From an uncultured Sphingorhabdus sp. (GTDB taxonomy: Bacteria; Pseudomonadota; Alphaproteobacteria; Sphingomonadales; Sphingomonadaceae), in NCBI GenBank assembly GCA_947501885.1, contig CANMXN010000002.1, positions 124,001 to 188,000 on the forward strand: DNA of 64,000 bases, written 5' to 3'. How positions within the stretch are numbered: position 1 is the stretch's first letter; the number at the start of each line of letters is the position of its first letter. Both the position numbers and the translations under genes were made by a program. Below the pieces are notes generated by a model. That model saw nothing but the letters and a program-made list of their open reading frames with translations. It was not told where the DNA came from and did no database searches. This document shows, piece after piece, positions 8,303 to 56,823 of the stretch.

Positions 8303-8482
8303 CATCATATTCCTTTCGAATAATCATCATAACATCATTCATATTTAAAGTGCTTGGCTAATATGTTCGCACCAGCAAAATAAAATATTTACACTCCCAA
8401 TATGAACCTGTGATGATTAAAATGATATTCTTGTAAAACTCAAAATTTTCGATAAACCAGCAATAATGATGATTATCCGACA

Positions 8483-39959: not shown

Positions 39960-40045
39960 GGACAGGTGGCCGAGTGGTTAAAGGCAGCAGACTGTAAATC
40001 TGCCCTCGTTAGAGTACATAGGTTCGAATCCTATCCTGTCCACCA
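39960..40045 (+). tRNA. tRNA-Tyr (anticodon GTA)
   Basis: 86 nt including the encoded CCA. The acceptor arms GGACAGG (39960-39966) and CCTGTCC (40035-40041) pair, the anticodon GTA is at 39994-39996 in CTGTAAA, the T-loop is GTTCGAATC, and the long variable arm makes it a class II tRNA. Its 3' end is the integration site of the downstream element. Confidence 0.97.
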
Positions 40046-40047
40046 CT
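40029..40047. mobile_element. att site 1 (tRNA-Tyr 3' end)
   Basis: TCCTATCCTGTCCACCACT is identical to 56378-56396. It covers the last 17 bases of the tRNA including CCA and two more bases. The flanking bases differ on both sides (A/G before, T/A after), so the match is exactly 19 bp. Because the left copy completes the tRNA gene, the insertion keeps the tRNA functional. Confidence 0.85.
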
Positions 40048-40121
40048 TTCAAAAATTTCCAGTGCAACTTGTTGCAATTCCGCTATTTTTGCTTTATTGT
40101 CACTTCATGCTCAATCGAATC

Positions 40122-40140
40122 TGTTACAAAACTTGTTACA
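40122..40140 (+). repeat. Arm-type repeat pair next to att site 1
   Basis: TGTTACA at 40122-40128 and again at 40134-40140, a 12-bp period. The same paired pattern TGYTACA-N5-TGYTACA occurs at 56296-56314 and 56460-56478, on either side of att site 2. The position just inside an att core is where integrase arm-binding sites lie. Confidence 0.55.
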
Positions 40141-40168
40141 AAAAATCTTTTTGCTTAGCTGAATTTTA

Positions 40169-41767
40169 ATGAAAAAGGTTTCAGGACAAAAACACCTATA
40201 TCGTAGAGGTAAAGACGGAACTTTTTATTTTCGACGTTATATTCCTGAGAAGTATAGACATGCTTTTGAAGGGAAATATGAAGATGTAACCTCACTTGAA
40301 ACGAATAATATTTCAGAAGCACGACATCGATTGCTCGCTAAGGAAACTCTCTTTGATTCCAAATTAAATCGAGCATCCCAACAACTCAGTTCACCTGAAG
40401 GAATATCTTACCTACCTGATTTTGATGAAATTTCCTTGGAAGTCAGAACATATTTTACAGAGCGCCAAAAACGGACGTATACAGAGCATTTACTTGATCC
40501 AGCCTTACATGATCAAGCCAAGGAGCGAATAATAAATGCAGAAGCATTTATCGCAGATACCGAACGCAGTATTTCCTTAGGTAGCAATGGATATACGCTC
40601 TCGGCTGTATGGACAGCGGAGTCCCTGATTGAAAAATTGAATTGGGATATTCAAACTGGGACAGCCCATTACCGTAAACTTATACAATTAGTCTCCTTTG
40701 CACAGATCGAAGCAGCTAAAAGAGAAATCCAAGAAATTTCAGGCAATCCATCCCAAGTTATCGACCAAAGATTTTCAACGGAATTAATTTTAGCTGATGC
40801 CAACACAAAGCAAGATAAAGCAAATAATCATCCAATTCCTCTATTAGACTTGTTTGATGCTTATGTAGATGAACGGCAACCACGCATCTCTACAACTCGT
40901 TCGTGGCGCAGATTACTAATCTCATTTATTCAATTTATTGGTCATGATAATGCTAAAGCTATCGAGCCTGATGATATCATCCTTTGGAAAGATCATTTAC
41001 TCAGTAATTCTGGTAAGAACTTATCCGCTAATACGGTCAATAATGCCTATCTTGCAGCATTAAGAACCACACTTAATTGGGGCGTAGAAAATAGAAAAAT
41101 TACAGCCAATCCCGCCTCTAGTGTAAGAGCCAGAAAGCAATCTCAAAGCACCACCCGTTCCAAAGGGTTGACCGATGAAGAGGCAAGTTTAATTTTACGC
41201 TCCACTCTAAAACAATCACAATCCAAAATAACTGCTGAAAGAGCATTCGCACGTAGATGGGTACCATGGTTATGCGCCTATTCGGGCGCTAGAGTGAACG
41301 AAATAACGCAATTACGAAGAGAAGATATTACCAATAGTAACAATATTTGGGTTATGAATTTAACGCCTGAAGCTGGACAAATCAAAAACAATCAAGCGCG
41401 TTTAATTCCAATTCATCCTCACATAATTGATCAAGGATTTATCACGGTCATCGAAGATAAAGAAGGACCACTCTTCTATGATGTTTCTCGTCGTTCAAAT
41501 ATCACTGCTGAGAATACGCAGGCAAAAAAGGCAGGTGAATATCTAGCCAAGTGGGTAAGAAGCATTGGCGTAACAGACAAAAGAGTTTGGCCTAACCATG
41601 GATGGCGGCATAGATTTAAAACCTTGGCACGGCGAGTAGGAATGTCACCCGAAACTCGCGATGCAATCCAAGGCCATGCTTCTCGAACAGAAGGCGAAGC
41701 ATATGGTGATATTGAGATTGATGTTAAATATGAAGCTATATGTTTATTGCCCAAGTATGAAATTTGA
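40169..41767 (+). CDS. Tyrosine-type site-specific integrase
   Basis: 532 residues. The N-terminus has the DUF6538 pattern YRRGKDGTFYFRRYIPEKYR found in integrases of proteobacterial islands. A SAM-like core-binding domain (about 225-320) precedes the catalytic domain with Arg in YSGARVNEITQLRRED (near 374), HRFKTLARR (His-x-x-Arg region near 480), GHAS (near 501) and the nucleophile Tyr in GEAYGD (near 511). It lies 123 bp from the tRNA it must recognise. The gene looks intact, so the element could be mobile if a partner excisionase exists; none was recognised. Confidence 0.92.
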   Translation: MKKVSGQKHLYRRGKDGTFYFRRYIPEKYRHAFEGKYEDVTSLETNNISEARHRLLAKETLFDSKLNRASQQLSSPEGISYLPDFDEISLEVRTYFTERQKRTYTEHLLDPALHDQAKERIINAEAFIADTERSISLGSNGYTLSAVWTAESLIEKLNWDIQTGTAHYRKLIQLVSFAQIEAAKREIQEISGNPSQVIDQRFSTELILADANTKQDKANNHPIPLLDLFDAYVDERQPRISTTRSWRRLLISFIQFIGHDNAKAIEPDDIILWKDHLLSNSGKNLSANTVNNAYLAALRTTLNWGVENRKITANPASSVRARKQSQSTTRSKGLTDEEASLILRSTLKQSQSKITAERAFARRWVPWLCAYSGARVNEITQLRREDITNSNNIWVMNLTPEAGQIKNNQARLIPIHPHIIDQGFITVIEDKEGPLFYDVSRRSNITAENTQAKKAGEYLAKWVRSIGVTDKRVWPNHGWRHRFKTLARRVGMSPETRDAIQGHASRTEGEAYGDIEIDVKYEAICLLPKYEI

Positions 41768-41836
41768 ATAATAGCTCTGTTAAAATTGACATTAAAACTA
41801 CGCTATGTAGGATAAAGCTATGGTAATATTATGTTA

Positions 41837-41993
41837 TCAGTTAGTTATATGGGGACTAAGCGTCATTTGATCCATTAGTTGCAAAACTAGTTTCTGATTT
41901 TAAAAAAGACGCATTATTAAACTTATTATCAGGCATGTGTCTATAGGAAAGCAGGTCGCATCTCAGAGACAAATATGGTCTAATGATATATAA
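41837..41993 (+). pseudogene. Fragment of D12-class adenine-N6 DNA methyltransferase
   Basis: Three frames together read as the start of a D12-type methylase: SYMGTKRHLI (ATG at 41849), then after a shift LVAKLVSDFKKDALLNLLSGMC, then after another shift GKQVASQRQIWSNDI ending at a stop at 41993. The first and second parts correspond to the YMGTKR and DLFSGxG S-adenosylmethionine motifs and the third to the region before the next conserved helix. The rest of the gene is gone. It suggests that the element once carried a modification enzyme. Confidence 0.5.
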
Positions 41994-42162
41994 AAGTTAT
42001 ACATATTTATAAGCTGGTTAATATCTCATGCTATGCCATTGCCTTAATTTTATAAAAGTTAAAATAACCATATATCAGCTGGTTTATAATAAAGGAGCTT
42101 TATCTATCAGATAATTAATATCTCTCATCATATAATAAGCAATTGATCTCAATTATCTTATT

Positions 42163-42191
42163 TTGACATAGTTCTGTCTTGATAATATGTT
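42163..42191 (+). promoter_or_regulatory. Promoter of the TIGR04255 cassette
   Basis: TTGACA (42163-42168) and TATGTT (42186-42191) with a 17-bp spacer. The start codon at 42250 follows by 59 bp. The -10 box falls exactly in the gap of the dyad at 42170-42212. Confidence 0.55.
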
Positions 42192-42212
42192 AAGGTTTAT
42201 CAAGATAGAATT
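42170..42212. promoter_or_regulatory. Large inverted-repeat operator over the cassette promoter
   Basis: AGTTCTGTCTTGATAA (42170-42185) and TTATCAAGATAGAATT (42197-42212) are inverted copies matching in 14 of 16 positions, with the inner 9 bp perfect and an 11-bp spacer. A protein bound here would cover the -10 region. Confidence 0.65.
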
Positions 42213-42249
42213 GACTTATATTAAACCTTCGTTATGAGAAATTATATAA

Positions 42250-43056
42250 ATGATTAACCGGCCAAACCATCTTCCCGATTACAATGCTCCGCCGCTCAAC
42301 GAAGTGGTATTAGGCATTCAGTTTCGGCCTGCGACTGGATACACCCAAATCCTCGCAAAAGATATTTGGAGTCTGTTTAAAACTGATTTCCCTTTGATTG
42401 AAGAGCATCGCTCTATGCCTCCTAGCTTCGAAACATTTGGATCAAAACTATCATCCGCTCCGCAATTTCAGCTAGTAGCTAATGCAGAACATAGTCGCTA
42501 TTGGTTCATTAATAAAGACCAAGATGAGCTAATTCAATTTCAAGGAGATCGCCTTCTACATAATTGGCGGCAACGTGGCGAAGAACCAAAACCATATCCG
42601 CGGTTTGAAGTCATGGCTGAACAATTCTCAAAACAGGTCAATGCTTTGCAAGAATATTTTAAATCCTTGGAAGATCAAGAACTGGAAATCAATCAATGCG
42701 AGATAAGCTATATAAATCACTTCCCATTGATCACTAGTGAGTTTGATTCCCCTAATGATTATTTGGAAATTCTGAATCTCAAGAACGAAAATGAAGATTT
42801 GATGCTAGGTTATCGCCGAATAATTACACAAGAAAGTGGTCAAAAAGTTGGACGATTATATTGCGACATTAAGCCTGCCATCAAAAATTCAGGTGAGTTG
42901 GTTTATGTGGTAAATTTAACAGTCCGCGGAACACCAAAAGCGACATCCATAGAAGAGGCACTTGCATTTCTAAAGAATGGTCGCGATATTATAGTTAAAG
43001 AGTTCACAGCAATAACGACCGAAAAAGCCCATCAATATTGGGAGAGGCGGAAATGA
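42250..43056 (+). CDS. TIGR04255 family protein
   Basis: 268 residues. The start PDYNAPPLNEVVLGIQFRP and the middle LIQFQGDRLLHNWRQRGEEPKPYPRFEVM are the hallmarks of TIGR04255, a sporadic family with no known biochemical function that is common on mobile elements. The fold appears to be a mixed alpha/beta protein without signal peptide or membrane segment. It is the first gene of a three-gene unit and overlaps the next by ATGA. Confidence 0.8.
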   Translation: MINRPNHLPDYNAPPLNEVVLGIQFRPATGYTQILAKDIWSLFKTDFPLIEEHRSMPPSFETFGSKLSSAPQFQLVANAEHSRYWFINKDQDELIQFQGDRLLHNWRQRGEEPKPYPRFEVMAEQFSKQVNALQEYFKSLEDQELEINQCEISYINHFPLITSEFDSPNDYLEILNLKNENEDLMLGYRRIITQESGQKVGRLYCDIKPAIKNSGELVYVVNLTVRGTPKATSIEEALAFLKNGRDIIVKEFTAITTEKAHQYWERRK

Positions 43057-43517
43057 GTAATGTTTTGAATTGGCCAGTTAGTACTGGTAGTGACCGAATG
43101 TTATCAATGGATCGCAAGATTATTAATGTCGCTCCAAAAGATTGGCGTTCTCAGGTTACAGACAAACTAAATGAGCTTACAGGCTTAGAAAGAGGGTGGG
43201 ACGGATACAATGCACCGCCCGTTAAGTTCGATACTGCCCATTTTGCATTGCAAATTTTGGAAGCGGTTTGTCCTGAAGAAGCTCCTCCACCACAATTTGT
43301 TCCAGGCGCATCAGGTGATCTACAAATTGAGTGGCACACCGATAATGGCACTATTGAGTTACATGTAATGAGGCCCTATTTCGTTAACTGCTGGTATTCA
43401 GAAAGCCAGACTGAAGAGACAGGAACCGAAATTGATGTAACTAACGACTTCACAGAGATCGCAAACTGGGTTCGAGAAGTAACGGAGCCGGTCGTTGCCG
43501 AAATCGCCGCCGTTTGA
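43053..43517 (+). CDS. Uncharacterised cassette protein 2
   Basis: 154 residues from ATG 43053, which overlaps the preceding stop (ATGA) and has GGAGAGG about 6 bases upstream. Notable conserved-looking parts are LTGLERGWDGYNAPPV, PPPQFVPGASGDLQIEWHTDNGTIELHV and a final helix. The GWDGYNAPP and EWH pattern recurs in proteins found with TIGR04255 genes, as I recall them; no function is known. It is soluble by prediction and ends inside the start region of gene 3. Confidence 0.65.
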   Translation: MSNVLNWPVSTGSDRMLSMDRKIINVAPKDWRSQVTDKLNELTGLERGWDGYNAPPVKFDTAHFALQILEAVCPEEAPPPQFVPGASGDLQIEWHTDNGTIELHVMRPYFVNCWYSESQTEETGTEIDVTNDFTEIANWVREVTEPVVAEIAAV

Positions 43518-43926
43518 TGAACAAGGGAATGTAATCGCTCATGATCATGACGAAATTGATGGTCGTGACATTATAATCCGACGTATTTCTGATAAGCAAA
43601 TTGTTACGAAAAATGGTCAGAAACACGTTTCATCTATTGCATATAAAGCATCGACTGGCGTCAACGGCTATATGTCTACAGATATTGAAGCATTTATTAT
43701 TCAAAATAACTTAGACCCAGAAAAATGGGTCACTTCTCCACGCTGGATTGGCTCTGTCAAATTCTCAGCAAGTTGCTTAAGAAATAAAAATCTTCAGGTT
43801 GGATACGTCCCTTTAGAAAAGAACCCTTATCATGGAGGAGTTTGGGGTGTGACGAGGTCGATTACCAAAGCATTGCAAGAAGAAGCAGATTGGTATGTTA
43901 AAATCGCGAACGTTAATCTAACTTAA
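43495..43926 (+). CDS. Uncharacterised cassette protein 3
   Basis: 143 residues from a TTG start with GGAG 7 bases before it; it overlaps gene 2 by 23 bp in another frame. It contains ASTGVNGYMSTDIEAF, WIGSVKFSASCLRNKN and the motif PLEKNPYHGGVWGVTRSITKAL, a proline-histidine-glycine pocket that looks functional. I do not recognise a family. Tight overlaps suggest that the three products are made in fixed proportion and may form one complex. Confidence 0.6.
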   Translation: MPKSPPFDEQGNVIAHDHDEIDGRDIIIRRISDKQIVTKNGQKHVSSIAYKASTGVNGYMSTDIEAFIIQNNLDPEKWVTSPRWIGSVKFSASCLRNKNLQVGYVPLEKNPYHGGVWGVTRSITKALQEEADWYVKIANVNLT

Positions 43927-44007
43927 TGTCCGTCTTCTTGCACTTGCGGAAATACTAGATTATAAAATCAGAGTATATTTCTCATTAGGCTTTGCCCTAG
44001 TGATACA

Positions 44008-44023
44008 TTGCAACGCGTTGCAA
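44008..44023. repeat. Perfect 16-bp palindrome TTGCAACGCGTTGCAA
   Basis: Located in the gap between the TIGR04255 cassette and the XRE gene. Related sites are TTGCAACCGGTTGCAA (45498-45513, perfect), GTGCAACAGTTGCAC (46111-46125) and TGCAACTTGTTGCA (40063-40076). A dimeric regulator of the element might bind them. Confidence 0.6.
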
Positions 44024-44175
44024 CGGTGTCTCATAGAAGTTGTTCATAGCTTTGAGACTGATAATCTCACTACTCCTAGAATTGAGTGAGACATTTTTAG
44101 AAATTATAACGTACAAGCATAATATTATTATAGTCTTCTAATACCGATACACCACCGGCTTGTCACTGAAGAGGC

Positions 44176-44379
44176 CTAGTCCAGCAAAGACCCAGCCTTT
44201 ACGCCAAGACAGGTCGCTAACTTTTCTACAACCATAATTGATGGGTTGCGAGTACCGCGCTCAAGATCAGAAACATATGTGCGGTGAATGTCAGCTTCAT
44301 ACGCAAACTCCTCCTGAGACCAGCCTTTGGCTTTACGAAGCTCTTCCAAATTTGAAGCAAGGCGAAGACGGATATCCAT
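44176..44379 (-). CDS. XRE-family transcriptional regulator
   Basis: 67 residues, a single helix-turn-helix domain: LRLASNLEELRKAKGWSQEEFAYEADIHRTYVSDLERGTRNPS. It ends shortly after the fold, so there is no effector domain. It probably represses its own or neighbouring promoters. It is the only candidate repressor recognised in element A and could be the partner of the 44008 palindrome, 150 bp downstream of its 3' end. Confidence 0.88.
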   Translation of the reverse strand: MDIRLRLASNLEELRKAKGWSQEEFAYEADIHRTYVSDLERGTRNPSIMVVEKLATCLGVKAGSLLD

Positions 44380-44663
44380 ACCCTTGACTTGTTAATTATG
44401 TCGCCTATTGTCTACAGACAACTGTCTACATTTATATTGCGTACATAGTGCAATGCATTTGATTGATAAACTAAGGGAGCCCAATATTCTCGACTTAAAA
44501 TGTGATGCCCCCGCAGGGAAAGACAATAATTTCAAATTAATCATGTGAACTTCAGATTCATTCACCGTGAAGCTTTGAATGGAACTTAAGCCAAATAAAG
44601 CAAGTTCATTAAACAATCAGAGCCTCATATCTAAATTCATTTATTAAATAAGGATAAATAATA

Positions 44664-45317
44664 ATGACAGAAACCGTAGAACCAAAATCAGATCGTAACT
44701 CATTGGGTAAAGCTTCATTTGTAATAGGTTTGATTGCATTAGCCGTCTCCTTCATTCCTATCGTAGGTTTTGTATCATGGTTATTAGCACCACTTGCTAT
44801 ATTATTTGGTCTGATCGCTCTGATGAGGCCATCCAAATCTCTAGCCATTGTCGGAATTATAACTGGCGCGATAGCTTTGTTAGTATGTTATCTATGGCTA
44901 GAAGGTACAAAAGGAGTAGGCCAAGCTATGAATGCAGATACATTCAATAATACAGGTGAAACACTTGATCTATCAACTGCTCCTATAATTGATACGACAA
45001 TAAAGGGGTTATGGAATGAAATGGAAGCCAACAAAGTTGCTGCTGGACAAAAATATGGTGAGAAGAGATTGCAGTTTAAAGGAGAACGAATAGCAGACTT
45101 TGGTGGCGATGCTCAAAACCCAACACTGAGTATTCAAGCGGCTCAGAAAGACTATGTAATTCATTCAGTTGTTGTTAGTTTTGACGCTACGAATGGTAAT
45201 TCTATCGCAAAATTATCTAAAGGTGACACAGTAGACTTCATCTGCACAAAAGTCAGCGAAACTATCTTTGAAGGCTTTTCATTGAGCGGTTGCACACTAA
45301 ATCCAAGTGACAAGTAA
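44664..45317 (+). CDS. Membrane protein with DUF4190-like helices and OB-fold domain
   Basis: 217 residues. Two hydrophobic helices with GLIALAVSFIPIVGFVSWLLAPLAILFGLIAL then GIITGAIALLVCYLWL form a DUF4190-like N-terminus. The outer part (about 115-217; NKVAAGQKYGEKRLQFKGERI...KLSKGDTVDFICTKVSETIFEGFSLSGCTL) matches the tRNA_anti-like OB fold seen in many exported small proteins. Function unknown; no neighbours in the same operon. Confidence 0.65.
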   Translation: MTETVEPKSDRNSLGKASFVIGLIALAVSFIPIVGFVSWLLAPLAILFGLIALMRPSKSLAIVGIITGAIALLVCYLWLEGTKGVGQAMNADTFNNTGETLDLSTAPIIDTTIKGLWNEMEANKVAAGQKYGEKRLQFKGERIADFGGDAQNPTLSIQAAQKDYVIHSVVVSFDATNGNSIAKLSKGDTVDFICTKVSETIFEGFSLSGCTLNPSDK

Positions 45318-45424
45318 CAGGGTTTCAGTCCAATAAAGCTGTAGCAATGACAGAAAAAGTGACGTTTTTCCGTGACTTAGGGTTTACTATCTTGTAATAT
45401 TATTCATATATTACAGGAGGTTAG

Positions 45425-45985
45425 ATGTTAGTAGGTTATTGCAGAACAAGCACAACCGAGCAGGTTGCAGGGCTTGAAGATCAAAAGCGACAACTCGTTG
45501 CAACCGGTTGCAATAAAATATTCGAAGAACAAATATCCAGTGTTGCCAAGAGAGAGAAACTTGAAGCGGCGTTGGACTTTGTGCGTGAAGGCGATAGTTT
45601 AATTGTTACGCGATTGGACAGGCTAGCCCGCTCGACAAAGCATTTTTTAGAAATCATGGAAAGGCTGCACTCCAAAGGTGTTAGCTTACGCATATTAGAC
45701 TTTGGTGGTAGCGCAGTCGATAGCCAAAGCGCGACAGGTAAGATGATGCTCACAATGTTCAGTGCCTTTGCTGAATTTGAACGATCCTTATTATTGGAAC
45801 GACAAAAAGCTGGTATTGCACGTGCAAAAGCACAGGGACGATATAAAGGCCGCGCTCCGACAGCACCCCGCAAGTCTCATGAGATCATGCGCCTTAACCA
45901 AGAAGGCCATACGCCTAGTCAGATTGCAGATTTAACAGGTGTTTCTCGGTCATCTGCATATCGTATTCTTGCAGAGGCCCAATAG
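45425..45985 (+). CDS. Serine recombinase (resolvase/invertase)
   Basis: 186 residues. Catalytic serine is in VGYCRTSTTEQ near residue 9; the active-site arginines lie in ITR/VTRLDRLARSTKHF, and the E-helix is SATGKMMLTMFSAFAEFERSLLLERQKAGIARAKAQGRYKGR. A C-terminal HTH (HTPSQIADLTGVSRSSAYRIL) binds DNA. AGGAGG lies 5 bases before the ATG. A TTGCAAC palindrome lies inside its own coding sequence. It may resolve element multimers or invert DNA. Confidence 0.92.
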   Translation: MLVGYCRTSTTEQVAGLEDQKRQLVATGCNKIFEEQISSVAKREKLEAALDFVREGDSLIVTRLDRLARSTKHFLEIMERLHSKGVSLRILDFGGSAVDSQSATGKMMLTMFSAFAEFERSLLLERQKAGIARAKAQGRYKGRAPTAPRKSHEIMRLNQEGHTPSQIADLTGVSRSSAYRILAEAQ

Positions 45986-46179
45986 TGCAACGCGGAGCAA
46001 TAGATATTAGCGAACATTTTGCTCGCCTCACATGCATATTGGAAGATGCGCATGCAATTAGCATTGAAGGGCAATCGCATTCAGCAACACAATGCGAGCA
46101 ATTGTTTCTGGTGCAACAGTTGCACGAATATATACATCGAATATCAGACAGCCTCAAACAGATTGAGCATAAGTTATGA
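45985..46179 (+). CDS. Small protein coupled to the resolvase gene
   Basis: 64 residues from a GTG that shares one base with the resolvase stop (TAGTG), with GAGG about 8 bases upstream. It has two helical segments and one cysteine; no family is recognised. Coupling supports a real gene that works with the recombinase. Confidence 0.5.
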   Translation: MQRGAIDISEHFARLTCILEDAHAISIEGQSHSATQCEQLFLVQQLHEYIHRISDSLKQIEHKL

Positions 46180-46259
46180 CCCTGAATGTTAGCAAAACGG
46201 ACACAAAAACTATTATACTCTAATCCGCATATAAACCGTATAAAAGCTATACTTACAGG

Positions 46260-46697
46260 ATGAACGAGAGAGGGTTTTGGATGGCCATTTTAAACAATAA
46301 ATCAGATCGGCAGCGCAGTCATAAATCATGGCAGAAACCTTATAACGGTTGGACATGGAAACAACGCTGCGCAGTCACTCCAATACAAAATAAAGCTGTA
46401 CGGGAGGGCAAGTTAATAAGACCAACCGTCTGCTCAATTTGCGGACATAGTAAATCCGATGCGCCCAAAGGTGCAGGTTATATTTTCATGCACACCGAAC
46501 GTTATGATAGGCCTCTTGATTTATATCCTGCGTGTAAACGCTGTCATGCTGCCTTACACGCCCGATTTGATGATCCTGCCCGCTGGTTCGTTGTTGTCAA
46601 ACAAAATTGGCGTCAGGGGGCTTGGTTCACGCTCTTGTCTATGGACCCTGCTAGTCAATATCAATCGTTCGACATCACCTATCCGAATGGACTATAG
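46260..46697 (+). CDS. HNH-nuclease-like zinc protein
   Basis: 145 residues. It has CSICGHSKSD, then HTERYDRPLDLYPACKRCHAALHARF: two CxxC pairs and spaced histidines in the order of an HNH domain, with the DRPLD segment as in HNH proteins from mobile elements. The WxxxHxxW context at the N-terminus is basic. It may cut DNA but the catalytic His is not certain. ATG 46260 has AGG directly before it; ATG 46281 is an alternative. Confidence 0.6.
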   Translation: MNERGFWMAILNNKSDRQRSHKSWQKPYNGWTWKQRCAVTPIQNKAVREGKLIRPTVCSICGHSKSDAPKGAGYIFMHTERYDRPLDLYPACKRCHAALHARFDDPARWFVVVKQNWRQGAWFTLLSMDPASQYQSFDITYPNGL

Positions 46698-46758
46698 TTC
46701 ATATAAAGATTTGATAAATTTTAGGGCCAAACTTACTATTTTAAACCTATCAAAATGA

Positions 46759-46968
46759 CTAATAAATATTCAAAATAGGGGGTGTCAGATTGACACTACC
46801 CCGTGTCAGATTGACACTACCCCGTGTCAGGCTGACACACTATATACAGGTAACCCTTATACAGATAACCCTTATACAGGTATAGTTGCGGCCACCGACC
46901 GCAACGATAATAAAAAACAAAATTTTGTTTCGGATAATTCCGAAGAAAAAAATCAAAAATTATTTTAA
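46759..46968 (+). pseudogene. C-terminal remnant of a Rep-like protein
   Basis: An open frame without start encodes CQIDTTPCQIDTTPCQADTLYTGNPYTDNP...NQKLF and ends at TAA 46966-46968; a TGA stands at 46756 directly before. The repeats match those at the end of helix-turn-helix replication-type proteins of alphaproteobacterial plasmids as I recall them, an inference. The DNA repeats inside it may be the functional part. Confidence 0.35.
46782..46879. repeat. Iteron-like repeat arrays
   Basis: Three copies of GTGTCAG..TGACAC (46782-46796, 46803-46817, 46824-46838) with a 21-bp period, each an inverted repeat, are followed by three copies of TATACAG (46843, 46858, 46873) with a 15-bp period and AACCCT between. 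GTTGCGG/CCGCAAC at 46885-46905 is a further hairpin. The 21-bp period puts copies on the same helix face. Confidence 0.75.
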
Positions 46969-47044
46969 GCAGTCTTGCTAACATTCATCATTATGAGTAT
47001 CCTCATTCTAAATATTGTGGAATAAAATGATGAGGGCATTAGAA

Positions 47045-47767
47045 ATGAAATATTTTGAGCAATCTAATTATGCTCTTACTTCAAAAATTAAATCCCTTTT
47101 CATATTTTTATTACTGAGCATCTTCGCCCTACCCGTCACTGCAGAAGCACAGCAACGCAGAACTGCTGCTCAATCAAACTTGGTTGCGACAAACGCCTAC
47201 CAAGCTCAAGCCACCCTTAATGCGTATAAAAGACAGGCTGGAGCAAAAATAAATGGTTTACGTGCTGAGGCGGAGGCTGCGCGCTCTCAAGTTAAACGGA
47301 TTAAAAACCAGCTTCGCAAGGCAACTGGTCAAAACTCTCCATTGTTAAGAGATTTGCGCAAGGCAGAGCAATTGGCGCAGCGCGATGCCGAATATGCACG
47401 GGAGCGCAAGAGGATTATTACGATAGCATCATCGTTTATCAAAACCGATGCAGGGCGGCGGTTCTTAGAATTGAAAAATGAAGGCAGTCCAGAGGCATGG
47501 GAAAAGGCCAAAACGATTGCAGATGAGGAACTTCTGGCTCAACTTTATATGGTAGCGGAAAATTATCGTAACGTTGCTACGCAATATCTGGATCAACGCG
47601 ACAAGGGGTTGGAGACCACCTCTGTTGTTATTTCGCGTTATGAAGGAGTGATCAAATTGGATGATACGCACCATCGGGATTGGATCGAACTGGCTAATCT
47701 ATATCAGGACGCAGGCGATTTAAACAAGGCACTGGAAGCTGCACAACATTCATTAAAACTGATTTAG
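47045..47767 (+). CDS. Exported coiled-coil/TPR-start protein, possibly truncated
   Basis: 240 residues from ATG 47045 (GAGGG 9 bases upstream; earlier ATG codons at 47027 and 47030 are possible). A signal peptide (LFIFLLLSIFALPVTAEAQ) leads to a long alanine/arginine coiled coil (about 55-110), and the last 40 residues (YEGVIKLDDTHHRDWIELANLYQDAGDLNKALEAAQ) form one TPR unit. Full homologues that I would expect continue with more TPRs, so the gene may be cut short. There is a 173-bp gap to the next gene. Confidence 0.55.
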   Translation: MKYFEQSNYALTSKIKSLFIFLLLSIFALPVTAEAQQRRTAAQSNLVATNAYQAQATLNAYKRQAGAKINGLRAEAEAARSQVKRIKNQLRKATGQNSPLLRDLRKAEQLAQRDAEYARERKRIITIASSFIKTDAGRRFLELKNEGSPEAWEKAKTIADEELLAQLYMVAENYRNVATQYLDQRDKGLETTSVVISRYEGVIKLDDTHHRDWIELANLYQDAGDLNKALEAAQHSLKLI

Positions 47768-47940
47768 AATTTATAAAATCTACTATCAGCGAAAGAGAGC
47801 ATACACATTTGCATTGAGCCTCATCAGGATATTCAAATTTATAGATATATGATATTATAGAAGGTAATTAGAGAACTGCTATCACCCATAGAGTAGATAA
47901 CAATCCCCTAATCAAATATACTTCATTGCATCAAATCTTA

Positions 47941-48081
47941 TTATTCACGTCCAGTTCCGTTGCATCTATCGCATTTTCCAGTACCATGACAGGCACCACA
48001 AGTACCACTGCCATTATCCCCAGTACCACCACAGGTACCTTGACAATTACCAGAACCGCCGCATTTACTACATGTCGCCAT
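47941..48081 (-). CDS. 46-residue zinc-ribbon-like protein with CxxCxGxG motifs
   Basis: AGGAGA stands 6 bases before ATG 48081. The 46 residues are almost wholly a DnaJ-type cysteine-rich domain: CSKCGGSGNC, TCGGTG, CGACHGTG and CDRCNGTG, enough cysteines for two zinc sites. No J domain is present. It may chaperone or bind zinc, but the function is not known. Its upstream region is occupied by a 36-bp repeat that occurs again 95 bp further on. Confidence 0.7.
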   Translation of the reverse strand: MATCSKCGGSGNCQGTCGGTGDNGSGTCGACHGTGKCDRCNGTGRE

Positions 48082-48105
48082 ATTATATCTCCTAATAGTT
48101 AGAGT

Positions 48106-48236
48106 GATGTGAGGACCGAGCACCAAGGGAGCACCCGATCCTAAGGAGAATTCTCTCCTTTGCTACGAACCAGAATCAATATTCAAGTGCATAGCTGTGC
48201 GATGTGAGGACCGAGCGCCAAGGGAGCGCCCGATCC
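48106..48236. repeat. Two near-identical 36-bp direct repeats
   Basis: GATGTGAGGACCGAGCRCC followed by AAGGGAGCRCCCGATCC occurs at 48106-48141 (R = A) and 48201-48236 (R = G), a 95-bp period, with two mismatches only. The second copy ends 9 bp before the autotransporter stop codon. Only two copies exist, so this is not a CRISPR array. Confidence 0.8.
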
Positions 48237-48244
48237 CCATGCTA

Positions 48245-51200
48245 TCAGAATCGATAACCGATGACTAACGATCCTGATACTGAGTTTCCATCGCTACCCA
48301 GTACGCCCCTTACATCGCCCCCCACAGACCAACCTTTGCCCAATTGATACCGACCTGCAACGCTATAGGCTGCACCAGAGAGACTGCGCTGTGCTGAGCG
48401 TATTTGGAAAGGTGCGCTTGCCGCACCGTCAAGGCTAAGGCCGATTTGGCTAAATTCATTGCTACTATCAACATATTGAAGACTTGCATCAATGCCGCCC
48501 CTATCGCCCTGCCAGTTGGCGAATATACCGCCGCCATAGCGGGTTAAGCTATCAGAGGTATCATTGCCCGATAGGTTGAGACTATCAGCACCAGTTTCGG
48601 TAAAGCGGCCGAGATCAGAATCGCCATGATTGATCGATATAATCGGACCAATTGACCAAGATGATCCAGCATCAATGCCATAGCGTATATCCCCAGCGAT
48701 AGAGAATGTCTCAACATCAACATTGGCGTTGGCGGTGCGCGTAAAATTATTGGCAATGATGGTGCGGCTGACATCGGCATCCAAATTGGAATAATTAAGA
48801 GCAGCCGATGCTGTAAAGCCTGTCCCATTATTGCCAACACGGGCATAACCGCCAAAATTCCAACCATCATAATTGGCTCTTGATAGTCTTTGCAGGGATT
48901 CTATGTCGCCATCAATGTAGCCCCAAGATAGACCAACAGCCCAGCCATCCTTTTTGCCGCGATAATCAACGCCAAAATCAAATCCAATAGCATCAGCATT
49001 GACATTGGCTGCATTGCCATCACCATCCACATTACCATCTTCACCAGCTATGTTGGTCCATAGGCCCAGCCCTTCACTGCCAGGTTCATGCGCGCGCGCC
49101 GTCAATCGATCGGTACGCGTCATGGCATTGGTAGCACCATCCGCAAGCAAAGAGGCATATATCTCCCCCGATACTGTATCAAATGTTTGCAAGGCTTCGG
49201 ACACGGTGGTGAACAATATTTGTTCAAATACCGCAGCAGAATCGCTGCCTGCTGTTTGATCCAAATTATCCAAAGCACCCGCAACGCTTAATTGGTTAAA
49301 TGTACCTGCAACTGTTGGGAACAGCGGTGCAGGCGGTACCACAGGCGGCGGAGGAGGAGGAGGAGGAGGCGCTGGAGGAGGTGGCGCTGGAGGAGGTGGC
49401 GCTGGAGGGGTAGGCGGCGGAGGTGGTGGAGGTGGTGGTGGTGGCGGTGGTGGTGGAGGTGCATTATTAGCCGTCAAAGTTAGCACCACATCATTCCCAT
49501 CGCCGCCCATCGTATCAACCGTGGGCGTTAAAAAAGCGAGCTGATTAATAATATTACCAAATGTACCGTTCACGGCATCGCTGCCATCATTATCAATAAT
49601 GATAAAATTAAACGGATCGCTACCGCCAAAATCACCACCAGCACCATCAAGTACCGACAAAGTACCATTTTGCAGCGTCACAGTGCCCATAACGATCACA
49701 GAATCCGAACCGCCGCTTTCATTGACTTCCACTTCAAATATGGAATCCATATCCAAAAGCAGATTACCCGTGGTCAGCGTTCCGATGCTGTTACCCGGTG
49801 CCAATGTCCCGCCCAAGACAGAGAGGTCACCAATAACACCTTCACCCCCCAAAAGCGCGCCTGCATTAACAGTGAAAGCGAAATTGGCAAAATCTACATT
49901 GGCAAATAAGGAACCCTCGCTCACGACGAATTCACCCGCGTCATCGCTGGAGCCAGTGAAGTTTAATACGCCGTCACCAACCTTCTCGTAATTCTCAAAG
50001 CCGCTAATATTGCCTGAATCAATCATGGCGTCAGACAGGATATTCAATGTGAAGCTGTCTTCGCCATCTCCACCATCAATATCGCCATTAACAGTACTGC
50101 CCGATGTGATGGTAAATCTATCGTCGCCGGCACCCAGTTCGATGTCGCCATTAATCACACCACCGGCCAGATTTGAGATTACATCATCAAACTCACCATC
50201 AAGATCAGCCCTAATCGCGACGCCGCTCTCACCGGTAATTGTTCCGGCATTAGTGAAATTCTCAAAACCACCGCCAGAGCCCTGTTCGATAAGAGCGGCA
50301 ATATTATTCGCGGTTATCGTCGATCCAGAATCTACCGTAAGTTCATTGACAATAGAGGACGATACAAAAGCATTGGAACCATCACCCGTAGCGGAAAGAT
50401 TAGTTATATTAAAAGCCAAGAAATGACCAACGCCTATACCACTCAATGTTTCCGGAGTAACTCCGGGGCTACCGCGCCCGCTACCAATAATAAACGCATC
50501 GGAATCAACGCCTGTTGTCGTAACGCTAATATTATCTCCAACAAAAGTAGCTATGCTAAACCCTGAAAAATCGGGAATAGAATCAATGACTATACCGGGC
50601 GACCTATCGCCGGTGGTATCAATGGTTACCCTATCTATTCCAGTTTGATGAACACTTTCAGATAGGGTGCCCTCAATACCGCCAAAGAAAGCTCCAATCG
50701 AGTCATCCTGGGTTGCACCAGTAAACAACCTATCGATAACCAGAGTGATGTCTGAATCTATAACATCACCGACAATATTGCTTATAAAAAGATTGGCGCT
50801 ATCATCGCCAATCGCTAATATTTCTATATCTTCTAACAATAGAGTAATAGAACTGTTAAGAAGTCCATTTTGCGAATTGTTAAAAAATATGCCGCGCGAA
50901 TTATCGCCTATTGTTTCGAAACGGGAATTTTCTACACGTATATTCGCAGAACTGTTATCGACAATCTGTGAGCTCAGCGTGCCAATTGACAGCGCATCGC
51001 TACCATCCCCAAAAGTGTCAATCATTATGGCATCAGCTGAGAACGCAAAAACAGACCTTGCTCCACCTGCTTCTTCGATAGATATGCCCGGACTATTCGT
51101 ACCAAAAGTCATTATTTCACTATTGACAAAGTCAAAACTAAGAGAAGAACCATCCGCAGTTGATCCTTGAAAACGAACACCCGCAGAATTGCTCGCCCCA

Positions 51201-53101
51201 GTGGTCCTGATCAGATCCGGTTCAGCGTTGTCGTCGAGGTCAATAGTGCCAAAGAAGAACGACAAACTCGAATCGGCCCCCAGGCCGCCAACAAAAATAC
51301 CCTCTGACTCATCACCGCTCGCGCTAATATCTGTAGCACTTACAGTGAGCGTAAGTGTTGAGCGATCACCAGTGCCTTCGAAAGAAATGGCGCTGCTATT
51401 CAAACCGGAGGTTGTTAATACGCTGTCTGTTTGTGTGATGTCATAACTATTATCATCAGGGTCAACTGCCCCGCGTGATAATATTCGCAGCGCGCTGCTA
51501 TTATCGCCTGTAGTGGTTAGATCGCCGCTATTCGTGACTGTAATATCTTCACCTACGACAGAGATCGCGCTACCAGCACCTGTAGATATATTACCGCTAT
51601 TGGTCAGGTTAAGCATGTTGGTTACGGTAAATATTCCCGTACCAGTACCTAATAGAATATCACCGCTATTATTAATGGTCAGATTGCTAATATTCTCATC
51701 GCCACCAGCAGCATCATTCACATTGTCAAAAAATGCTATAATCCCAGCAGAAGCTGCATTGCTAGTCGTTGATAAATCAATAGTGGCGCTATTTTCAATA
51801 GTCGCCGTAATATTATCATCGCGTGTAGCAAAAAGTGATATGCCTTGAGCTACAGGCGTATCAAATATAATATCACCACTATTATTAATATCAAAGATAT
51901 AATCATTATTGGCATTTGGCCCAAAGGTGTTGATCAAAATACCGACTAGGCTATCACCACTACCCGTTATATTACCGCTATTGATTGTAGAAACATTAGT
52001 CGCATCGCTTTGCACTAGGTTAAGAATGCCTGTCCCATTTCCACCAACCGCTGTTAAATCAATAGTTGCACTATTATCGACATTTAAATCAACTGCAGTT
52101 CCGCTGCCTTGTGCCAATATACCAGAACTACCTACACCATTTGTTGATAATGCACCATCATTGTCGATAGTGATAGTAGATGCTTGTGCAGTATCATTAT
52201 TATTCGCAAAACCAACTATAGCATTGGTACTTTGACCTATAACAGATATTGTTCCGCTATTAATAATATTAGACTCTCTGGCATCTGCAAATGTATTGGT
52301 TACAATACCTGCGCCTATACCATTAAAATCTGTATCAAAAGAAGCTGAACCAGTAGCAACATCAATGTTGCCACTATTGGTAACATTAATTGTTCCCGTA
52401 CCATCGAAGCTAACAGCGCTAATACCTGCAGTAACAGTTTCACGTTCTCCTACGCCATTGCTAGTAGCGCTTAAATTACCGCTATTATCAATATTTATAC
52501 TGCCATTTCCGCCCACTTCAAAACTGGTAATAGCAGTTGCATTATCACCCGATGTAAAGGCCGTTATATCACCGCTATTATTGATGGTCGTTAGCCCATC
52601 ACCACCAGTATTGCTCACTTCAATACCTAAACCAAGCAAACCATTGCCATCTGCAATGATTGTTGCTCCGCTGTTTAATGTTGCATCAAACCCATTATTA
52701 TGGAGGATAGCAATACCTTGCGATGGGGCTGCTATAGTATCATCATCAATTGTATTGATGACTACATCATTCGCAACATTCACCACGATACTCTGATCGG
52801 GGGTGATAATTACAATTCCTGGCAAACCAATAGGGTCAATTGGACCATCAATATTTTCAACATTTAATGTCTCAAAGGGAGGCGTATCTTGCGATACAAA
52901 GATACCACCCGATACATCTCCCGTACATGTCGCAACTCCATCCACTATAGGACATTCAGGGCTAATCCCAGGGTTTAATTGCTGCGCTATTGCTGTTGGG
53001 GCGAACATGGCCGCCATTGCCATAGCCGATATAGCAGCCCCTGCCTTTAGACTATCTTTATATTTAAACACTTTATTATTTTTATGATCATAAAAACTCA
53101 T
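48245..53101 (-). CDS. Giant autotransporter (type Va secretion)
   Basis: 1618 residues. A signal peptide with an extended basic start (AAISAMAMAAMFAPTAIAQQ) leads to a passenger of about 1100 residues rich in N-S-G-x-I and D-N-S-x-G-I units, expected to fold as a beta-helix. A proline-rich linker at about residues 1214-1255 (runs of PPPP with A, T, V) precedes a beta-barrel of about 270 residues ending in GYRF. The passenger is probably displayed or released. AAGGGG lies 9 bases before the ATG. It is divergent from the sigma factor gene and shares a 195-bp promoter region with it. Confidence 0.88.
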   Translation of the reverse strand: MSFYDHKNNKVFKYKDSLKAGAAISAMAMAAMFAPTAIAQQLNPGISPECPIVDGVATCTGDVSGGIFVSQDTPPFETLNVENIDGPIDPIGLPGIVIITPDQSIVVNVANDVVINTIDDDTIAAPSQGIAILHNNGFDATLNSGATIIADGNGLLGLGIEVSNTGGDGLTTINNSGDITAFTSGDNATAITSFEVGGNGSINIDNSGNLSATSNGVGERETVTAGISAVSFDGTGTINVTNSGNIDVATGSASFDTDFNGIGAGIVTNTFADARESNIINSGTISVIGQSTNAIVGFANNNDTAQASTITIDNDGALSTNGVGSSGILAQGSGTAVDLNVDNSATIDLTAVGGNGTGILNLVQSDATNVSTINSGNITGSGDSLVGILINTFGPNANNDYIFDINNSGDIIFDTPVAQGISLFATRDDNITATIENSATIDLSTTSNAASAGIIAFFDNVNDAAGGDENISNLTINNSGDILLGTGTGIFTVTNMLNLTNSGNISTGAGSAISVVGEDITVTNSGDLTTTGDNSSALRILSRGAVDPDDNSYDITQTDSVLTTSGLNSSAISFEGTGDRSTLTLTVSATDISASGDESEGIFVGGLGADSSLSFFFGTIDLDDNAEPDLIRTTGASNSAGVRFQGSTADGSSLSFDFVNSEIMTFGTNSPGISIEEAGGARSVFAFSADAIMIDTFGDGSDALSIGTLSSQIVDNSSANIRVENSRFETIGDNSRGIFFNNSQNGLLNSSITLLLEDIEILAIGDDSANLFISNIVGDVIDSDITLVIDRLFTGATQDDSIGAFFGGIEGTLSESVHQTGIDRVTIDTTGDRSPGIVIDSIPDFSGFSIATFVGDNISVTTTGVDSDAFIIGSGRGSPGVTPETLSGIGVGHFLAFNITNLSATGDGSNAFVSSSIVNELTVDSGSTITANNIAALIEQGSGGGFENFTNAGTITGESGVAIRADLDGEFDDVISNLAGGVINGDIELGAGDDRFTITSGSTVNGDIDGGDGEDSFTLNILSDAMIDSGNISGFENYEKVGDGVLNFTGSSDDAGEFVVSEGSLFANVDFANFAFTVNAGALLGGEGVIGDLSVLGGTLAPGNSIGTLTTGNLLLDMDSIFEVEVNESGGSDSVIVMGTVTLQNGTLSVLDGAGGDFGGSDPFNFIIIDNDGSDAVNGTFGNIINQLAFLTPTVDTMGGDGNDVVLTLTANNAPPPPPPPPPPPPPPPPTPPAPPPPAPPPPAPPPPPPPPPVVPPAPLFPTVAGTFNQLSVAGALDNLDQTAGSDSAAVFEQILFTTVSEALQTFDTVSGEIYASLLADGATNAMTRTDRLTARAHEPGSEGLGLWTNIAGEDGNVDGDGNAANVNADAIGFDFGVDYRGKKDGWAVGLSWGYIDGDIESLQRLSRANYDGWNFGGYARVGNNGTGFTASAALNYSNLDADVSRTIIANNFTRTANANVDVETFSIAGDIRYGIDAGSSWSIGPIISINHGDSDLGRFTETGADSLNLSGNDTSDSLTRYGGGIFANWQGDRGGIDASLQYVDSSNEFSQIGLSLDGAASAPFQIRSAQRSLSGAAYSVAGRYQLGKGWSVGGDVRGVLGSDGNSVSGSLVIGYRF
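49336..49465. repeat. Simple-sequence repeat coding the proline-rich linker
   Basis: Plus-strand GGAGGTGGTGG/GGCGGAGG-type runs encode the linker of the autotransporter. Such runs are slippage-prone and could vary linker length. Confidence 0.7.
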
Positions 53102-53181
53102 ATTTCTACACCCCTTGAACTGAAAACTATAGTCTTGTTAAGAGAAGCGTAATCGATCAGAAAAACCCCTCAAAAAATTTC

Positions 53182-53197
53182 AAAGTTATTTAACTTT
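53182..53197. promoter_or_regulatory. Palindrome in the autotransporter/sigma intergenic region
   Basis: AAAGTTATTTAACTTT has 7-bp perfect arms with a 2-base centre, about 80 bp before the autotransporter ATG and 100 bp before the sigma ATG. It may be an operator, but AT-rich palindromes occur by chance. Confidence 0.35.
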
Positions 53198-53296
53198 TAA
53201 ATCTATAAGGACAATTGCAGGCAGAGAAAATTGGCTATTTATGTCACATTATTAATGAAGCTTTACATTTCTCTATTCTAAACTATTTATTTATGA

Positions 53297-53839
53297 ATGA
53301 ATTATCAGAACCTTATCTTGAGATGGCGTGAGGGCGATAAAGACTCTGGTGATACTCTTGTCCGCGATATCTATGATGAATTGCAGAAAATTGCCGCAAT
53401 CAAACTATCGAAGGAATTATATTCTTCTCTCTCTACGGGCGATCTTATTAACGAAGCTGTGATCAGAATCTCTAAATTAGATCGTATGCAGTTCCAAGGC
53501 CGTGAACATATTTTAGCCATAGCTTCAAACATAATGCGGCAAATTCTGATCGACCAAGCAAGAAAACGTAATTCTCAAAAACGCTATCATACCCAAGTTA
53601 CATTAACACCAGAAATTGCCAGAGGAGAAGATCCTTTAGACTTACTTGAGCTCGAATTAGTCATGCAAGAGCTTCATGACATTGATCCAGTTCGCTCGCA
53701 TATTGTTGAGATGCGTTATTTTGGTGGTATGACGATTAACGACATTTCAGTGGTTTTAGAATTGTCTGTTTCTACCATTGAACGCCGCTGGCAAGCTACG
53801 CGAATATGGCTACAAAACAGGTTAAACAATGGCAGATAA
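53297..53839 (+). CDS. ECF sigma factor of the kinase-linked type (ECF43-like)
   Basis: 180 residues. Region 2 reads ELYSSLSTGDLINEAVIRISKLD followed by REHILAIASNIMRQILIDQARKR, and region 4 IVEMRYFGGMTINDISVVLELSVSTIERRWQATRIWL. It matches the TIGR02999-type ECF factors often encoded next to Ser/Thr kinases. No anti-sigma factor is adjacent. The 3' end overlaps the kinase gene by 11 bp, so kinase phosphorylation is a likely control. Confidence 0.85.
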   Translation: MNYQNLILRWREGDKDSGDTLVRDIYDELQKIAAIKLSKELYSSLSTGDLINEAVIRISKLDRMQFQGREHILAIASNIMRQILIDQARKRNSQKRYHTQVTLTPEIARGEDPLDLLELELVMQELHDIDPVRSHIVEMRYFGGMTINDISVVLELSVSTIERRWQATRIWLQNRLNNGR

Positions 53840-56189: not shown

Positions 56190-56295
56190 GATATTCCTGT
56201 TTCAAGGTAACATTGAAAAAATTGTTATCGGCCTTCGGATCATCAATCTATATAATTAGCGTTATACTAAACAATCAAAATCTACACCCTATAAC

Positions 56296-56314
56296 TGTTA
56301 CAGAATTTGCTACA
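56296..56314 (+). repeat. Arm-type repeat pair inside the right end of element A
   Basis: TGTTACA (56296-56302) and TGCTACA (56308-56314), 12-bp period, the same arrangement as at 40122 near att site 1. The pair lies 64 bp before att site 2. Confidence 0.55.
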
Positions 56315-56377
56315 AAACTAAATATCTAACAATCATATATTATTGAAATATAAAGAATATAATATAATAAAGTATAG

Positions 56378-56396
56378 TCCTATCCTGTCCACCACT
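56378..56396. mobile_element. att site 2 (right end of element A)
   Basis: TCCTATCCTGTCCACCACT, identical to 40029-40047. The tRNA bases before it are absent (AATAAAGTATAG instead of the T-loop), showing that this is an insertion scar and not a second tRNA gene. Confidence 0.85.
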
Positions 56397-56459
56397 ATTT
56401 CTGAAAACCCTAGCTTTCCCGCAACTTTTATAAAGTAGCTTTCCTGTCTTCGTAATTTT

Positions 56460-56478
56460 TGCTACACAATCTGCTACA
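56460..56478 (+). repeat. Arm-type repeat pair inside the left end of element B
   Basis: TGCTACA (56460-56466) and TGCTACA (56472-56478), 12-bp period, 64 bp after att site 2, at about the same distance from the core as the pair at 40122 is from site 1. This supports an older element's left end. Confidence 0.5.
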
Positions 56479-56823
56479 TAAAAAGCCATATCAACGAAGT
56501 GAATTTGGTCATGGCTAAATAGCTTTGCCGAAATATCCTAGATAGTATCAAAAGACCATGGTTAAACAGCAGAATTAATCCATATTTTCACTATCTAATA
56601 TTAGTGCAGTTGAGTCCAAAACTCCGTAACATCCTTATTAGTGTAGAAATATTATTCTTATAATCTTACATCATATTATCAATATTTTATGAAACAAATA
56701 TGGTTATATGCTCCGCTTTTAGAACTCACAAATTAGCATCTATAAGATGATTAGACTTGCTAACATACCACAAGGATATACAATAGTGGGGAATATATCT
56801 GTGTATATAGGATAAGTTTAAGC

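Follow-up and report, generated by a model that had tools for sequence, protein, structure and literature searches.

What do proteins of the family TIGR04255 do, and why should one of them head three overlapping genes on a mobile element? The question arises from a 64,000-nucleotide stretch of DNA of an uncultured Sphingorhabdus sp. (GCA_947501885.1, contig CANMXN010000002.1, positions 124,001 to 188,000 of the forward strand), called the window here, whose numbering is used throughout. A sequence-only reading of it had proposed that the trio (genes 1, 2 and 3; Table 1) is an undescribed system, possibly serving defense or maintenance of the element. Our answer is that the trio is a conserved operon that may form a single mobile conflict module, a toxin system or a phage defense, with an ADP-ribosyltransferase (ART)-like toxin effector, a labile inhibitor encoded by gene 2 and a TIGR04255 sensor; we give this account a probability of about 0.35.

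Results

All three frames are open and intact. Gene 1 belongs to TIGR04255, scoring 74.4 bits against the NCBIfam profile (cut-off 30), with residues 11-265 aligned to profile positions 2-252. NCBIfam gives the family no named function, in agreement with the sequence-only reading, and the term TIGR04255 was not found in the literature searched. The first start codon of gene 1 is at 42250 (the stretch originally noted begins upstream, at 42163), gene 2 starts with the ATG at 43053, within the ATGA at 43053-43056, and the TTG at 43495, the earliest start codon in the frame of gene 3, lies 23 bp inside gene 2; the overlapping layout proposed from the letters, with TIGR04255 first, is thus borne out. 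Up to an E of 1, neither Pfam nor NCBIfam matched gene 2 or gene 3, and in Pfam the three window proteins and the gene 3 alignment all stayed under the family cut-offs. PHROGs returned nothing below E 0.02 for the proteins of the trio, and searching PDB sequences with an alignment of each protein yielded only E values of 0.6 or more.

A gene 2 alignment search of a genome collection recovered 25 loci, labeled mostly Alphaproteobacteria, with a few other Proteobacteria and one Planctomycetota. The order of the trio is kept there more often than chance would explain: all three profiles match in order in 22 of the 25, a count that includes one locus with gene 1 split over two frames (L026) and one with only fragments of genes 1 and 3 (L032). 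The exceptions are a gene 2 standing alone (L015), a locus that stops at a contig end (L033) and a divergent operon (L035). In L015 (7923-9056) the solitary gene 2 is followed by a pair that by eye looks VapBC-type, and tblastn found no trace of genes 1 and 3. The complete trio was also found on a viral contig (L066/L067), and a second such contig (L065) has gene 3 and a portion of gene 2; the plasmid search gave a single weak match to gene 2 (E 4e-4) and none to gene 3, and the search of phage records none to gene 1.

The junctions are conserved as well. Across the window and 21 other loci, the start codon of gene 2 lies at -3 of the gene 1 stop in 19/22 and at 0 or +1 in 3/22, and that of gene 3 lies 20-32 bp within gene 2 in 16/22 and 0-12 bp from the gene 2 end in 6/22; gene 3 starts with TTG or GTG in 12 of the 16 loci with the 20-32 bp overlap. 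We consider it almost certain that the three genes are one functional unit. The earlier suggestion that such tight overlaps imply stoichiometric synthesis does not follow, given that the starts are mostly TTG or GTG; a coupled but weak start would be equally compatible with a low dose of gene 3.

TIGR04255 was then searched directly (threshold 1e-8) in samples not picked by gene 2, and matches were found in 18/396 genomes of the order, 19/385 of the class and 0/14 control genomes. The 18 matches in the order and 22 in the class, the window being in both, come to 39 distinct matches. The sequence-only reading had been prepared to abandon its proposal if genes 2 and 3 were absent beside TIGR04255 in other genomes, and the proposal survives: two co-directional genes lie downstream in 36/39, with one, after a gap, in L072 and L099 and none in L095; in L102 there is a stop within gene 1. 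What varies is the last gene, which, in classes assigned by eye and with simple patterns, is of an R-S-H class in 27 matches, a CD class in 8 and another class in 3. In the R-S-H class, the R (or H) is close to the N terminus, the S belongs to a strand of the GxSV kind and the H is close to the C terminus; four members deviate, L079 having H in place of R, L097 Y in place of H, and L094 and L104 no clear S motif. The CD class (L072, L075, L080, L087, L092, L093, L099 and L108) has (Q or H)-x-CD instead, Q-x-CD in 7/8 and H-x-CD in L075, and in 5/8 the CD gene is preceded by a second gene that by eye is helix-turn-helix (HTH)-like. L073, L090 and L091 have in common a different gene pair, the last gene with a GLTCATF-like motif. 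When the gene 3 profile was run against 2640 open reading frames (ORFs), L078, L076, L047, L085 and L069 ranked next after the close relatives (E 0.01-0.4); three of these (L078, L076 and L085) follow TIGR04255, L069 follows a gene that is TIGR04255-like by eye only, and L047 is PDC-M32B-like. These ranks are suggestive, and the individual scores are not significant. TIGR04255 thus seems to be the fixed component of operons whose effectors can be exchanged.

The AlphaFold2 (AF2) model of gene 3 is confident (predicted local distance difference test, pLDDT, 96.9). In a second look at the Foldseek candidates with VIA-align, the top 13 rows were Tpt1/KptA tRNA 2'-phosphotransferases, a few of them with titles that give only a mutant or locus, at Z 5.8-6.8 with 89-96 residues aligned; the best was Tpt1 (Z 6.8, 90 residues, root-mean-square deviation, rmsd, 3.1), aligned in its C-terminal NAD+ lobe. 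Below them stood SdeA (3.8), TreTu (3.4 and 3.3), a fungal NADase (2.3) and RhsP2 (2.2), all of which we take to share the ART fold, and two unrelated entries were also at 2.1-2.2. DarT, CmdT and other ARTs were not in the list, which excludes nothing. The best BFVD match was an unnamed entry (E 5.8e-3, probability 0.96). The likeness to Tpt1/KptA is in the predicted fold of one lobe; gene 3 lacks the RNA lobe, a detectable sequence relation and the Tpt1 tetrad. Arg29, Ser61 and His113 are invariant in gene 3 and offer a candidate active site. Gene 3 probably has an ART fold; that it also performs ART catalysis is a more tentative suggestion.

Genes 2 and 3 are related to PDC-M32 of PADLOC. 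Gene 2 is homologous to the C-terminal part of PDC-M32A, matching only positions 255-368 of 375 (E 5.2e-12; profile-profile 4e-9). The gene 3 protein of the window had no PDC-M32B match; among its relatives, 5/22 and 4/22 match two PDC-M32B models at low score (best E 2.5e-4), and hhalign of gene 3 against the PDC-M32B side gave 5.3e-4 for a single pair. The trio is therefore not wholly undescribed, as PDC-M32 already covers relatives of genes 2 and 3, although the literature searched does not mention TIGR04255. The PDC-M32 architecture, its own N-terminal domain and a GWDG-like C-terminal domain in one protein, is absent from the window trio, and we rejected gene 1 as the N-terminal half of PDC-M32A, the profiles being unrelated (hhalign P 0.22).

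The long M32A match occurs in five loci. In three of them (L036-L038) the pair is flanked by an hsdM-like gene on one side and by an hsdS-like gene on the other (hsdS by eye; the hsdM-like gene of L037 matches TIGR00497 hsdM at 6.3e-16, below its cut-off), in L039 an hsdS-like gene follows the M32A-type pair, and in L040 no restriction gene was seen by eye. Such embedding, which may not be defining, differs from the situation in the window, where the neighbors found in scans are an integrase, HTH, resolvase and others. PDC-M32B-like genes in L042 and L047 lie near nucleotidyltransferase-like genes, L047 also near a HEPN-like gene (by eye), and the GWDG domain of L042 is part of a fusion with repeats that match a PPR model. 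The relation of genes 2 and 3 to PDC-M32, which in some loci is embedded in a type I restriction operon, lends indirect support to a defense role of the trio, as first surmised; no enrichment of defense genes near the trio was seen (see Discussion).

Gene 2 ends in Ala-Ala in 15/16 overlapping loci, the remaining one being the window, with Ala-Ala-Val (AAV); by comparison, such ends occur in 12/226 neighbor ORFs of at least 150 amino acids, 0/23 gene 1 and 0/23 gene 3 proteins. The tail could be a by-product of the overlap, because the overlap encodes Pro-Pro in most gene 3 proteins. Both frames seem constrained, however, with the reservation that the sequences are related and so not independent: the last two gene 2 codons begin with G in 32/32, although that G is in 29/32 the free third base of a gene 3 proline codon (otherwise 2 leucine and 1 glutamine), and CCG accounts for only 42/146 proline codons elsewhere in gene 3. 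The Ala-Ala or AAV end resembles a ClpXP tag and is a candidate for one; AAV also works as a tag variant. That gene 2 is an antitoxin is suggested tentatively.

The AF2 model of gene 1 (pLDDT 87, residues 64-79 poor) combines an extensive sheet and long helices, and the structures that it matches (Z 7.3-9.3, rmsd 2.9-5.0) include spermine synthase and phosphagen kinases. A sensor function for gene 1 is possible, if doubtful.

That the trio rides a mobile element was already suspected and is upheld by a 19-nt direct repeat at the 3' end of tRNA-Tyr, an adjoining tyrosine integrase and a candidate empty site. In the congener G663, similarity to the tRNA end runs up to C289:8436 and similarity to window 56413-56516 (76% identity) sets in at 8454, the pattern that an empty site would give. 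This candidate is a match of about 100 bases in 1/20 other genomes of the genus, and G664, the nearest relative by the left flank (79%), did not match the element's right flank. The 5 other genomes of the genus listed among the 196 searched yielded no gene 2. The carrier thus appears to be a mobile element of about 16.35 kb in tRNA-Tyr, on evidence that is good but single.

Table 1. Features of the trio and of its carrier element (window positions)
Feature	Position	Strand	Evidence
Gene 1, TIGR04255 family, 268 aa (amino acids), proposed sensor or stabilizing partner	42250..43056	+	NCBIfam; AF2 model
Gene 2, GWDGY/EWH protein, 154 aa, proposed labile antitoxin or adaptor	43053..43517	+	PDC-M32A C-terminal match; 24-row alignment
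Gene 3, 143 aa, ART-like predicted fold, proposed toxic effector	43495..43926	+	AF2; VIA-align; 22-row alignment
Gene 1/gene 2 overlap, ATGA	43053..43056	+	sequence
Gene 2/gene 3 overlap, 23 bp, TTG start	43495..43517	+	sequence
Gene 2 tail codons Ala-Ala-Val, candidate C-terminal degradation tag	43506..43514	+	15/16 overlapping loci end AA
Gene 3 Arg29 codon, candidate active-site position 1	43579..43581	+	R in 22/22 gene 3, 8/8 PDC-M32B-like, L035
Gene 3 Ser61 codon, candidate active-site position 2	43675..43677	+	S in 22/22, 8/8; aligned to D in L035
Gene 3 His113 codon, candidate active-site position 3	43831..43833	+	H in 22/22, 8/8, L035
tRNA-Tyr, attachment site of element	39960..40045	+	ARAGORN
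Left att repeat	40029..40047	+	19/19 identical to 56378-56396
Right att repeat, element end	56378..56396	+	19-nt repeat match; congener G663 resumes at window 56413
Tyrosine integrase of element	40169..41767	+	Pfam Phage_integrase 3e-06, DUF6538 1.5e-08; PHROG integrase 7.2e-30

Several other features lie on or beside the element. A Ser/Thr protein kinase (53829-56189) matches PADLOC PD-T4-6 (9e-55) and an NCBIfam PknB-type model (2.7e-55, below cut-off), both of them general kinase matches; a 1618-amino-acid autotransporter (48245-53101, minus strand; Pfam 1.4e-27) has repeats around 49322-49462. A small HTH protein (44176-44379, minus strand) matches a PADLOC restriction control protein at 3.6e-21, and no restriction gene was recognized adjoining it. 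A 21-nt unit, GTGTCAGATTGACACTACCCC, is repeated in perfect tandem at 46782-46823, and a 36-nt near-repeat at 48106-48236 has copies 95 bp apart. The broken methylase once thought to adjoin the trio was not recovered: a six-frame search of 40040-56400 for [DNS]PP[YFW], the one methylase motif searched, gave only an SPPF inside gene 3. Around the trios of other loci, the best 25 of 120 Pfam families matched by near ORFs included many of housekeeping type along with 2 integrases, 2 resolvases and 1 transposase; when 10 large ORFs were scanned one at a time, matches were obtained for 3, namely type IIG restriction enzymes in L018 and L029 and a subtilase in L020.

Discussion

One could envision the trio as one operon and a conflict module on a mobile element. 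In the account that we favor, gene 3 would be a distant ADP-ribosyltransferase-like effector, acting perhaps on NAD+, RNA or protein through Arg29, Ser61 and His113, and gene 2 would bind and silence it. Gene 2 would be short-lived, its Ala-Ala or AAV tail being open to a ClpXP-type protease, and gene 1 would stabilize gene 2 or sense infection, such that a phage product engaging gene 1 would lead to loss of gene 2 and release of gene 3. The nearest known logic, by analogy, is that of CmdTAC, which according to PMC11618068 comprises an ART toxin, an antitoxin (CmdA) ending in the ClpXP tag LAA, and a chaperone sensor. Both systems have three genes, and in the trio, too, the effector is predicted to be ART-like and the C terminus of the second protein is rich in Ala; the resemblance appears to lie in logic and not in parts, as the SecB-like chaperone of CmdTAC is not matched by gene 1 in Pfam and PADLOC scans of the trio gave PDC-M32 models only.

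Several results weigh against this account. The best Z of gene 3, 6.8, falls within the range that VIA-align calls common and is not decisive, Foldseek found nothing below E 0.001 in PDB or BFVD, profile comparison of gene 3 with KptA was null with one KptA sequence and again with three (P 0.31), and the 22-row alignment has no conserved catalytic glutamate. At E<1 the gene 3 profile missed 7/11 of the other last genes listed and 7/8 PDC-M32B-like proteins. The Ala-Ala tail occurs in 0/6 non-overlapping loci and by eye is also absent in divergent trios. For gene 1, no SecB match was found in Pfam at E up to 1, a result that leaves a fold-level relation possible, and its matches to spermine synthase and phosphagen kinases were kept only as a common arrangement, too general to speak of function. 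Nearness to defense genes, which the sequence-only reading had wished to see scored, gave no sign of enrichment: a PADLOC scan at 1e-10 that covered 132 of the 156 ORFs lying up to 3 kb from the trio matched 35 families, as compared to 76 for the 126 of 135 ORFs scanned farther away, these families being almost all single-member and several of them able to match one protein. PDC-M32 is itself an untested candidate. According to PMC12988326, PDCs derive from a guilt-by-embedding approach and most are untested; PMC12409345 reports that two other PDCs, tested in the native host, gave no defense. In the literature searched, PDC-M32 is named by a single paper, PMC12429752, as a prediction in Sinorhizobium prophages.

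Some of these results would be expected if gene 3 were a non-enzymatic binding protein whose ART resemblance is merely a common arrangement of strands and helices, an idea to which the Z below 8 and the null Foldseek and profile tests lend weight. We regard it as rather unlikely, as the 13 top rows are of one enzyme family, the next four are presumably of ART fold, and R29, S61 and H113 do not vary among the gene 3 and PDC-M32B-like proteins. The prominence of Tpt1/KptA could be taken more literally, with gene 3 cleaning RNA ends or processing NAD+ products in a metabolic or RNA-repair operon of which genes 1 and 2 would be subunits, without toxicity; a 143-amino-acid protein that has no RNA lobe and aligns with the other lobe, and whose operons are patchily distributed, mobile and variable in their last gene, is hardly what one would expect of housekeeping, making this very improbable.

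Alternatively, the trio may be a split, standalone relative of PDC-M32, with genes 2 and 3 as its active pair and TIGR04255 in place of the M32A N-terminal domain; the whole would guard restriction or another host process, much as PrrC guards a type I restriction enzyme. The homology of gene 2 to the M32A C terminus, the weak PDC-M32B matches of gene 3 relatives, and the hsdM-like and hsdS-like genes that flank the pair in 3/5 long-M32A loci (with an hsdS-like gene following in L039) would all be accounted for; as the window trio lies outside any restriction operon, its gene 3 has no PDC-M32B match, and L040 has no restriction genes by eye, we hold this to be unlikely. Carriage on a defined integrative element would suit an addiction module that maintains the tRNA-Tyr element and has no defense function, which we think less likely still.

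Extended from the trio to its family, the conflict-module account would make TIGR04255 the constant subunit, serving as common infection sensor, in a large and so far undescribed family of mostly three-gene conflict systems. Their last gene (R-S-H and ART-like, CD or of the third class) would encode a toxic effector that can be exchanged, and their second gene the inhibitor that matches it. We offer this generalization as a speculation more apt to fail than to hold. If nearly all sampled copies head a small operon with interchangeable last genes, as our reading gives for 38/39, an orphan family would become a testable system. The TIGR04255 operon would also be linked to an untested PADLOC candidate, PDC-M32, and gene 3 may represent a new branch of ART-like effectors with three residues to mutate.
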